From: JACPSX01 sp035288405 [NCBI: bacterium]
Lineage (GTDB): Bacteria > JACPSX01
DNA length: 5,436 bases
Direction of reading: 5' to 3'
NCBI GenBank assembly: GCA_035288405.1
Contig: DATEAK010000321.1
Span: 1-5,436, forward strand
Shown: positions 2,111-5,087 of the stretch, piece by piece
How the letters are laid out: every line of letters starts with the position of its first letter
Numbering within the stretch: the first letter of the stretch is position 1
Program-made: the position numbers and the translations under genes
The notes under the pieces: model-generated
The model's input: only the letters and a program-made list of their open reading frames with translations
The model's database searches: none
What the model was told of the DNA's origin: nothing

Positions 2111-2917
2111 TCATTTAAATTTGACCATAAAAAAGACCGGTCTCGAAGACCCCCCCTCGGGTTTCGGGTTCGTCACAGTGATCGGAAAGGTTCCCACACG
2201 TCGCAACAGCCGGCCGGGTATCGCGGCCTTTATCTCCGTGGGACTGATGAACTCCGTCCTCAAGCCCACCCCATCAAGCCGCACCACGGACTCCGGCTGG
2301 AAGGAAGCCCCCATTACGGAAATCTCCGTTTCGGCATCTTCCTCGGTGCCGATGATCGGAGAGATCTTCTCGATTTGAGGCAGAGGATTCCCGTAGAACT
2401 CCTCATGGCTGGGGCGCGGAATCGGATTGGTAAATTCCCGGTGAAATCCGGGATCAAGAACACGCCCGCCCTGAATGACCCGGTCGATTTTCTGAGTATT
2501 GGAAATGCTCTCGAGGGGATTCGCCCGAAGCAACACGAGGTCCGCCAGTTTTCCAGCAGCAATACTCCCAAGGTCCTTTTCTTTCTGAAGAAAATCCGCC
2601 GCCACCGTAGTAGCCGATTGCAGAGCTTGCATGGGGGTCATGCCCGCCTCGACCAGAAGTTCCAGTTCCCGGTGGAGTCCAATGCCGGGCGCGACGGCCC
2701 CTGTATCGGACTCAGCGACGACTCTTCCTCCGGCCTTGGCTAACTGACCGATGAAATCCCGGTGATGAATGAAACCCTGCCTCAGATCTTCAAAGCGGTA
2801 CTTGCTCGTGGCCCCGTACACCGCGTTGTAGTTGTCCAGCCAATAACGGCGCCGGAGGTGCGTCCCCCCGCCGACGTCAACGAGCGTGCCTCCCCGGATG
2901 ACCAGTGCTTGACTCAC
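2111..2917 (-). pseudogene. Amidohydrolase-family protein with missing catalytic core, plus C-terminal IPT/TIG-like domain (268 aa)
   Basis: The protein starts like an imidazolonepropionase/prolidase-type metal-dependent amidohydrolase (VIRGGTLVDV, residues 6-15). From about residue 20 it jumps to the last part of that fold. Recognisable C-terminal family blocks are AGGRVVAESDTG (62-73, with D71 as the likely metal-binding Asp), LHRELELLVEAGMTPMQALQSAT (81-103) and DLGSIAAGKLADLVLL (115-130), followed by NPLESISNTQKI and GGRVLD (150-155). The barrel strands that carry HxH, the bridging Lys/Glu and the two later His ligands are absent; family members are usually over 400 residues. Residues about 179-267 resemble an IPT/TIG immunoglobulin-like domain: ISPIIG, VMGASFQPESVVRLDG, AAIPGRLL, ITVTNP and a final FFMVKF. 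The GTG start (2915-2917) has GGAGGAG 4 bases upstream, 15 bases after the binding-protein gene. The frame is open throughout, so it may still be translated, but hydrolase activity is unlikely. No signal peptide is seen. Assembly collapse is an alternative to real deletion. Confidence 0.8.
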
Positions 2918-2932
2918 GGTCTCCTCCGACGG

Positions 2933-3922
2933 CTAGCGGCCAAAGACGCGCTTTTGGGCTTCCCGCAGGTAGCTCATGTCGATGAACTTGGTTGCCGGCG
3001 GGTAGGGCTTTTTCAAGTCCCCCATCTCTCCCAGGCTCTCGACCACCCGTTCCACTCCCTTCTCGGGAACGGTTCCGTCCAGGGGCTGGATATTCTTAGT
3101 GATGTAGTACTCGTAGGCCCGATCCGCATAATCCACGGGGACACCGGTTTCTTTGGCGGCAATTTCAACGGCCTCCTTGCGGTTGGCGTGAATCCAGCGG
3201 TTCGCCTTGAGAATGCCTTCCAGGAAATCGACCACCTTCCCCGGATTCTCTTTCGCCCACTTGCCTCCCACGTTGATGTCGGTGAACTGGAACTCCTTCA
3301 CGTATTGGGAGAGATTACTCAGTTCCGGATACCCCTTGTCCATGGCGAGGTAGTTGGTGGGGATCATGAGCATCACCGCCGAGACGTTACCGGCTTCCAG
3401 GGCGACCACGCGTTCCTGCGTGGAACCCACCTGGACCATCTTGTAGTCCCGCGGGAACTCCAAGCCGTTGGCCCGCATGATCTCCTGCATGAGAACGGTC
3501 GTCCCGCTCTTAATTCCCGAGACCCCCAGGGTCGTCCCCTTCAGATCCTTCAGGGCTTTGTACTCCTTGCGGGCCACCAGGCTAAACACAGGCACGTTGT
3601 TCAGGGAAGCGATGATCTTCATATCCTGGCCCTGCTCGACCAGCCGGATCACTCCCTCGGCGGCACTGGTGGAGAACTGGATGGAGCCGGCCAGAAGCGC
3701 CTGAGCTTCCACGTCCAGGGCGCGTAGTACCGAATAACCTACGTCCATCCCTTTATCTTTGAAAAAACCCTTCTGCTGTCCGACCCAAACAGGAAGGTAA
3801 GCTTGATTTTTCCCCACCATCCCTACGGTGATTTTCTCCGCAGCGGAAACCAGTGAGGCCGCGACAGAAAAAAGCAGGACCGCGACCAGAATCGAGAACC
3901 CCTCTCTCCTAGCAGTGCGCAT
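2933..3922 (-). CDS. Periplasmic ABC transporter substrate-binding protein, NMT1/SsuA/TauA-like (329 aa)
   Basis: This is a periplasmic binding protein of the nitrate/sulfonate/taurine/thiamine-precursor type (NMT1/THI5-like fold), which captures a small solute and hands it to an ABC permease. Residues 1-28 form a Sec signal peptide: a basic MRTARR start, a hydrophobic stretch to about residue 25, and a likely cleavage near VSAA before EKITVG. The mature part begins with the family pattern ITVGMVGKNQAYLPVWVGQQ, then GFFKDKGMDV (52-61). Next come LLAGSIQFSTSA (77-87), DLKGTTLGVSGIKSGTTV (126-143) and ALEAGNVSAVMLM (174-186). The C-terminal lobe has the usual FLEGILKANRWIHANR helix (233-248). 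I chose the ATG at 3920-3922, with GGAGG about 8 bases upstream, because it gives a clean signal peptide. The open frame upstream to 4123 adds a Ser/Gly/Arg-rich stretch with no family likeness. It lies 25 bases after the remnant of a related gene and 15 bases before the amidohydrolase gene. No permease or ATPase gene is in view. The ligand is unknown. Confidence 0.93.
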   Translation of the reverse strand: MRTARREGFSILVAVLLFSVAASLVSAAEKITVGMVGKNQAYLPVWVGQQKGFFKDKGMDVGYSVLRALDVEAQALLAGSIQFSTSAAEGVIRLVEQGQDMKIIASLNNVPVFSLVARKEYKALKDLKGTTLGVSGIKSGTTVLMQEIMRANGLEFPRDYKMVQVGSTQERVVALEAGNVSAVMLMIPTNYLAMDKGYPELSNLSQYVKEFQFTDINVGGKWAKENPGKVVDFLEGILKANRWIHANRKEAVEIAAKETGVPVDYADRAYEYYITKNIQPLDGTVPEKGVERVVESLGEMGDLKKPYPPATKFIDMSYLREAQKRVFGR

Positions 3923-3947: not shown

Positions 3948-4259
3948 CTAGAGTGTATCAAATAGTTTCCCAAACCCTTCGACCCGGGCCCGAATATGGA
4001 GGCGCCGGAACGCCCACCAGACCATGGCCTGCGTGAGCCGTGAGCCGGATTCAATGTAGATGAACTCGACGTCGAGCCCGTTCTTGGCCGTAAGTCCCGC
4101 CTCTTTGGAGATCCAAAGGGCACTATTGCTCCCCGTAATGGCGTTGTATCCCACCCGCATCTTCTCCAGCTTCTGAGCAGCCGCCTGCCCGCCGGAACTT
4201 AGGAGAAACAGGAGCATAAGGCAACCGGCCAAAACCGCGATTCCTGGTTTTCTGATCAT
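3948..4259 (-). pseudogene. Truncated ABC substrate-binding protein (N-terminal remnant, 103 aa)
   Basis: The first 80 residues match the N-terminus of an SsuA/NMT1-like binding protein. There is a signal peptide (MIRKPGIAVLAG, then LMLLFLLSSGG, with likely cleavage around QAAAQ at 25-29). The characteristic start of the mature domain follows: MRVGYNAITGSNSALWISKE (34-53), AGLTAKNGLDVEFIYIESGSR (54-74) and LTQAMV. From residue 81 the text (WWAFRRLHIRAR and on to the stop) no longer resembles the family, and about 220 residues of the two-lobed domain are missing, so it cannot bind a ligand as a normal family member does. The LAGC at 10-13 resembles a lipobox, but the hydrophobic segment before it is too short, so Sec cleavage is more likely. 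The ATG start at 4257-4259 is preceded by AAAGGGGG. It is the first gene after the operon promoter. Either a large internal deletion or a frameshift after residue 80 explains the tail. Confidence 0.8.
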
Positions 4260-4390
4260 GTGTGAATCCCCCTTTCCCTCCCATCGAAACCCGAACAAGC
4301 TCCCGGGAATCGAAGGGACTATGACCCGATGCACGGACAAAGCGTCAACCGACGATACTCCGACCCCGGAAGTGTAGGCTGGAAATTGCT

Positions 4391-4418
4391 TTTACAGGAC
4401 GAAGCTTATAGATATTCT
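4391..4418 (+). promoter_or_regulatory. Possible promoter for the methyltransferase gene
   Basis: On the plus strand, TTTACA (4391-4396, five of six to TTGACA) is followed 16 bases later by TATTCT (4413-4418, four of six to TATAAT). A transcript starting near 4425 would have a leader of about 75 bases before the GTG at 4503. The -10 box overlaps that of the opposing promoter, so the two directions could interfere with each other. Support is by consensus match and position only. Confidence 0.3.
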
Positions 4419-4443
4419 AAACCAGACGTGGAAAATGGGTCAA
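4414..4443 (-). promoter_or_regulatory. Predicted sigma70-like promoter for the minus-strand operon
   Basis: Reading the minus strand, TTGACC (4443-4438) matches five of six -35 bases. After an 18-base spacer, TAGAAT (4419-4414) matches five of six -10 bases. It sits in the most AT-rich stretch of the divergent intergenic region and points at the binding-protein remnant, giving a leader of about 150 bases. A second, weaker pair on the same strand is TTGACG (4348-4343) with CATAGT (4323-4318) at 19 bases. Confidence 0.5.
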
Positions 4444-4502
4444 TGGGATTCTGTAGCGCTTCTTTAGCAACGAACTCGTCGAGTCTTCATGAGGAGGGGA
4501 TC

Positions 4503-5087
4503 GTGAGAAAGCTTACCCGTTTCTTGCTTTTATCCTTTGTTCTAGCGCTGGTCAGTACCGCCCAGACCTTCCTGACGAGGGACCGATCCGAAGCATCTCA
4601 AGCCCAATCTCAGCCCATCCAATTGGCCCCGTTCGAGCCGACTCCCATGGAGGTAGTGGTCCGCATGCTCGCTCTGGCGGAAATCCGTGAAAAAGATGTA
4701 CTGTACGATCTAGGCTCAGGAGACGGGCGGATCGTCATTGCCGCCGCCAAGAGATATGGGATCCGCGGAGTCGGTGTCGACATTGATCCCGAACTGGTCC
4801 GGAAGTCCCGGGAAAATGCGCGTAAGGAGGGCGTCGAACGCTTGGTTGAATTTCGCCGGCAAGATGCGCTGACCGTCGATCTCTCCGAGGCTACGGTGGT
4901 CACCTTGTACCTTTACCCAGACGCCAACTTGTTGCTACGACCCATATTGCGGAGTCAATTGCGGGCCGGAGCGCGCGTTGTCTCCCACGATTTCGATATG
5001 GGGGATTGGAAACCCGTCCTGTCCGAAAAGCTCAGAGATAACCAGGGAGAGGATCACATCATCCATCTCTGGCGCATCGAAAAGTAA
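4503..5087 (+). CDS. SAM-dependent methyltransferase with N-terminal signal/anchor segment (194 aa)
   Basis: This is a class I Rossmann methyltransferase that should bind S-adenosylmethionine. Motif I is DLGSGDGR (69-76), the acidic end of beta-2 is D93 in GVDIDPE, and the adenine-contacting loop is RRQDAL (D121). The beta-4 region is TVVTLYLYPDAN (131-142), followed by LRAGARVVSHDFDMGDWKP (153-171). These blocks are typical of a small methyltransferase group seen in environmental bacteria, where the signature FxPTPxEVVxRML (44-56 here) leads into motif I. The protein opens with VRKLTRFLLLSFVLALVSTAQTF, a basic N-region and hydrophobic core that looks like a signal peptide or membrane anchor, followed by a polar Ser/Gln-rich linker (29-40). 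The GTG at 4503 is chosen because AGGAGG lies 5 bases upstream. The same frame is open back to 4329, but that extension has no ribosome-binding site or family likeness. It is divergent from the operon and probably functionally independent. The methyl acceptor is unknown. Confidence 0.88.
   Translation: MRKLTRFLLLSFVLALVSTAQTFLTRDRSEASQAQSQPIQLAPFEPTPMEVVVRMLALAEIREKDVLYDLGSGDGRIVIAAAKRYGIRGVGVDIDPELVRKSRENARKEGVERLVEFRRQDALTVDLSEATVVTLYLYPDANLLLRPILRSQLRAGARVVSHDFDMGDWKPVLSEKLRDNQGEDHIIHLWRIEK

Follow-up and report, generated by a model that had tools for sequence, protein, structure and literature searches.

Genes and features of the locus

The window, meaning the whole stretch of 5,436 nucleotides that was analysed, carries on its minus strand an open frame (positions 2111-2917; 268 amino acids plus a stop) that Pfam, NCBIfam and an alignment with a full-length relative (L001, protein P0001; described below) assign to an internally deleted amidohydrolase-TIG gene. 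Reading of the open frames placed its GTG start at 2917, shortly past the sequence GGAGGAGA (2927-2920), with no internal stop down to 2111. The ribosome-binding region 5' of this start (2918-2927, minus strand) is identical in L001. The N-terminal 21 residues (2855-2917) are retained, as seen from the open frame and from the alignment with P0001. They are followed by a retained C-terminal part of the barrel (residues 22-165, 2423-2854; Pfam and alignment), which holds the remaining putative ligand D71, and by a TIG or CoaZ-type domain (residues 178-264, 2126-2386; Pfam and NCBIfam), the same as in the full-length relative. All these features lie on the minus strand.

The amidohydrolase profile Amidohydro_1 (PF01979) matched residues 63-153 with 47.7 bits (cut-off 25), and this match covers positions 242-344 of the 345 in the profile, that is, only its last third. 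In the relatives with solved structures the best aligned stretch began at window residue 48 or later in 20 out of 20 cases among the matches listed. The TIG profile (PF01833) matched residues 180-263 over nearly its whole length (positions 1-82 of 84; 26.5 bits, cut-off 20.9), and the NCBIfam model CoaZ_rpt_PGGG (NF058597) matched residues 178-264 with 73.6 bits (cut-off 30). The window tail is thus of the CoaZ_rpt_PGGG/TIG type. The window gene most likely belongs to a known enzyme family and has suffered an internal deletion.

Upstream, on the same strand, lies an intact gene for an NMT1/SsuA-type substrate-binding protein (SBP2, 2933-3922; open frame, Pfam, NCBIfam and L001 alignment, with the start codon chosen by us). 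Further upstream, another NMT1-type binding-protein gene survives as a relic (SBP1, 3948-4259, minus strand; open frame, Pfam and L001 comparison), consisting of 79 residues (4023-4259) followed by unassigned sequence and a stop. Among the 80 matches listed, no intact binding protein matched the sequence after the relic convincingly. Two intact short-chain dehydrogenase genes are found downstream (1312-2061 and 466-1233, both minus strand; open frames, Pfam and NCBIfam). A methyltransferase with a hydrophobic N-terminal stretch is encoded on the plus strand (4329-5087) and has a counterpart in L001 (NCBIfam and L001 alignment); its nearest NCBIfam model is an archaeal-type protein-lysine methyltransferase, at 133 bits and below the cut-off of 200. 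The intact amidohydrolase is probably a metal-dependent hydrolase of the amide or peptide type and, from the neighbours of its gene (NMT1/SsuA-type binding proteins and short-chain dehydrogenases), we infer that the cluster serves to take up and degrade some small organic compound.

Genes of these families also occur elsewhere in the genome of the relative (G001). In this 2.9 Mb MAG, 49 places matched NMT1 (PF09084) at E <= 1e-5, versus 18 in the 4.6 Mb genome G085, these two genomes being the ones compared. On contig C27 of G001, a paralogue of SBP2 (L023:7099-8834, 77% DNA identity) has a short-chain dehydrogenase gene directly after it and no amidohydrolase in between. The same contig carries a 200-amino-acid frame for an NMT1-type binding protein (L026:1737-2336, minus strand) in which both ends are kept and about 150 middle residues are missing in frame, the same pattern as in the window amidohydrolase but in a different gene.

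A full-length relative and the extent of the missing segment

A collection of 84,980 species was scanned with six peptide patterns taken from the window, a procedure that is sensitive to close relatives only. The only match was a gene in a groundwater MAG of Candidatus Tectomicrobia (NC_groundwater_717, JACPSX010000133.1; L001:7134-8702), 88% identical over window residues 22-255. The gene reads through: its product P0001 has at least 523 amino acids, the C-terminal end being cut by the end of the contig, so that the genes downstream are not visible, unlike in the window. P0001 starts with VSQTLVIRGGTLIDV, and the linker and TIG-type tail are the same as in the window protein. The start, the ribosome-binding site, the C-terminal part of the barrel, the upstream SBP2 gene and the more distant methyltransferase gene are also common to both loci. 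Unlike the window form, P0001 keeps residues 22-289, with the HxH motif, the lysine and two histidines that are putative ligands. No relatives were found in a search of viral contigs, and the 190 records returned by a plasmid search were all below 60% identity.

At the DNA level, window and L001 align in two blocks, window positions 2865-3862 at 87% and 2154-2855 at 85% identity, and L001 positions 7187-7999 fall between them and are absent from the window. Between the two blocks the register shifts by exactly 804 bp; the loss is therefore in frame. The optimal single split lies at window position 2855, with splits between about 2850 and 2864 within two matches of the optimum. Consistent with this, the window form lacks P0001 residues 22-289 in the protein alignment, and we place the deletion junction zone at 2850-2864 (minus strand). 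The initial annotation, which had described the two ends of an amidohydrolase joined directly in an open frame around 2855-2865, was correct on both points, as the 268-residue frame and the two-block alignment confirm. The alignment to a full-length amidohydrolase-TIG homologue by which it had proposed to fix the breakpoint is the one given here, and it reveals an in-frame internal loss.

The same annotation regarded the TIG-like tail as gained with the collapse. This was mistaken; the full-length P0001 carries the same tail, which rules out a gain and means that the collapse did not bring it. NF058597 gave a single match in G001, to the amidohydrolase P0001 itself (72.7 bits), while the Pfam TIG profile (PF01833) gave no match on the contig-cut P0001 at E <= 0.01 in the stretch that matches NF058597. 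Twelve more distant amidohydrolases in our alignment end without a TIG tail. Taken together with the tailed full-length relative, this means that the amidohydrolase-TIG fusion predates the deletion, although it seems to be particular to this small lineage. In seven related-genome loci that were inspected, CoaZ_rpt_PGGG seems, by reading of the sequence, to lie within other proteins, unlike in the amidohydrolases of G001 and the window.

Metal ligands and the search for other short forms

We aligned the window protein with 13 other sequences. An HxH motif, a lysine and two further histidines reached 90% conservation or more among the sequences that have these positions, and an aspartate was invariant (14/14). 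We take these positions to be the metal ligands of the amidohydrolase superfamily, in agreement with the alignment to 3mtw; in P0001 they are H66, H68, K153, H180, H198 and D339. The HxH after the first barrel strand (H66/H68), the bridging lysine (K153) and the two further histidines (H180, H198) all fall inside the missing segment and are absent from the window form. Only the putative catalytic aspartate at the end of the barrel is present, D71 in the AESDTG motif, corresponding to D339 of P0001. The initial statement that the HxH and later metal-binding residues are gone is thereby borne out for all of them except this aspartate (five of six lost). With five of the six expected ligands missing, no known amidohydrolase chemistry should be possible for the window form.

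Judged from sequence, most of the (beta/alpha)8 barrel is gone as well. Proteins of known structure in the Xaa-Pro dipeptidase/arginine carboxypeptidase group of Amidohydro_1 (PDB 3mtw (Cc2672), 2qs8, 2p9b and 9kov) share with the window form the C-terminal block of the barrel and the Asp-containing motif. In the listed chains, of 403-458 residues, the aligned part reaches almost to the C-terminus, so that a TIG tail would not fit behind it; the window form instead lacks the catalytic core. AlphaFold models of the short form (mean pLDDT 42.9, with values of 60-82 reached in only a part of the TIG region) and of the full-length control (mean pLDDT 33.9, TIG region likewise poor) were uninformative in both cases, since each was built on an alignment of only two rows.

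We searched for other genomes carrying the short form, as the initial annotation had suggested. With P0001 as query at E <= 1e-20, matches were obtained in 9 of 192 genomes, at 17 places including that in L001 itself, and the open frames there span 456-1130 amino acids. At E <= 1e-40, 14 places were found in 14 of 388 genomes, with no open frame below 450 amino acids. When the first 165 residues of the short form were used as query (E <= 1e-12, at most nine candidates scored per genome), 99 places in 62 of the 388 genomes were recovered, the gene of L001 among them. None of the 99 showed another short form, as assessed by frame length only for 92 of them and by inspection for the seven shortest. 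These seven frames, all below 400 amino acids, were not seen to join the two ends of the enzyme as in the window. L088, L090, L091 and L092 run to the ends of their contigs (for L092 deduced from frame length), L093 keeps the middle sequence with no start recognisable by reading, and L094 covers the whole enzyme in 355 amino acids. A frame of 114 amino acids in genome G203 (L089:2015-2356) comprises the C-terminal amidohydrolase part only and is probably a gene remnant; by reading of the sequence it adjoins apparent transporter genes. Among the titles and abstract openings of the literature matches listed, there was no mention of a short amidohydrolase-TIG form.

Origin of the short frame

A comparison of the breakpoint regions in L001 revealed no exact shared match longer than 6 nt. 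The 60-bp flanks of the breakpoints share 5 nt, against an average of 5.9 for 294 random pairs, which is not above chance. L001 therefore offers an assembler nothing of k-mer size on which to collapse, although the missing segment is known from L001 only and the window species' own DNA may still contain such a repeat. SBP1 is truncated in L001 too, where the counterpart keeps about 42-44 residues, versus 79 in the window, and the end points differ; loss at the SBP1/amidohydrolase locus is thus seen in two separate records, at different points. That the L001 breakpoints share no such repeat, and that SBP1 is truncated in both records, favours a real and recent deletion of the 804 bp, and we hold this to be probable, with considerable reserve.

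The age of the remnant and the constraint on it were examined by comparing window and L001. The dN/dS ratio was 0.09 for residues 22-164 (bootstrap 0.043-0.174) and 0.17 (0.079-0.328) for the linker and TIG part, estimates that come from two sequences only and so average both branches. The value for residues 22-164 is close to that of the last 250 codons of SBP2 (0.073, 0.041-0.113). In simulations of neutral evolution the same frame stayed free of stops in 2.2% of 1000 runs at a distance of 0.27, about half the pairwise synonymous distance, and in 36% at a distance of 0.05. Since a neutral frame rarely stays open over the longer distance, there are two possibilities: the deletion came later, perhaps much later, than the split from L001, or selection still acts on the remnant. 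Ordinary constraint of this kind would be expected after a recent deletion, and a selected short protein would show the same.

Three other explanations have to be weighed. The sampled genome might have a full-length gene whose ends were joined by a chimeric read or a graph error. This is possible but less likely; it would fit with the full length of L001, the only close relative found, and two assembly faults are conceivable in a 5.4-kb contig that holds a second truncated gene, SBP1. In addition, the peptide patterns of the window matched L001 alone among the 84,980 species, so that the contig may stem from a metagenome. However, the frame is exactly kept, both flanks align cleanly, the L001 breakpoints share no repeat of k-mer size, and the truncation of SBP1 recurs in L001, a separate record. 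Alternatively, the short protein might be maintained, with the partial barrel and the TIG domain working without catalysis, for instance as a binding or regulatory partner. We consider this improbable, although the frame is open, the ribosome-binding site is kept and dN/dS is low in the remnant and in the linker and TIG part. The constraint may just reflect ancestry in common with the intact enzyme. Most of the barrel is absent from the remnant, the single orthologue recovered is full length, and none of the 99 homologous places in 388 genomes carries a short form (92 by frame length, the seven shortest by inspection). As the sole close relative found keeps the whole gene, we most likely see a gene that broke recently, or else a fault of assembly, and not a new kind of protein. 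More specifically, the deletion might have fixed a small protein without enzymatic function, made up of the C-terminal barrel part and the TIG domain and still produced from the original ribosome-binding site, which would serve intact paralogues or the binding proteins of the cluster as a binding partner, regulator or decoy; this appears very unlikely. The conserved, repurposed amidohydrolase scaffold put forward in the initial annotation therefore finds no support in the searched genomes, and repurposing is without positive support. Finally, the short form could belong to an ordinary family of its own, unrelated to amidohydrolases and merely similar to their ends. Over residues 22-255, however, the window protein has 88% identity with the C-terminal part of a full-length amidohydrolase in a syntenic position, and its first 21 residues match the start of that enzyme. 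With nothing found in favour, this reading is next to impossible and was rejected.

We therefore favour, guardedly but as the probable course of events, a recent in-frame loss of 804 bp from an ordinary amidohydrolase-TIG gene whose frame stayed open by chance. The ancestral gene would have encoded an ordinary metal-dependent amidohydrolase carrying a TIG domain at its C-terminus, in a cluster of binding-protein, amidohydrolase and dehydrogenase genes in a Tectomicrobia-like bacterium. In one lineage or strain, 804 bp would recently have been lost from the middle of the gene, presumably through illegitimate recombination between sites sharing little if any homology, and the deletion would be present in the cells; that the frame stayed open would be chance (one deletion in three). 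The ribosome-binding site is kept, and the product would most likely be a non-catalytic and probably misfolded remnant heading for loss.

An in-frame internal deletion thus yields a plausible short gene, which annotation would call amidohydrolase-family even though the active site is gone. The case is a warning that a full-length syntenic relative should be sought before such fragments are called new domain architectures. It would bear on the repurposing of enzymes only if reads confirm the short form and more genomes share it.
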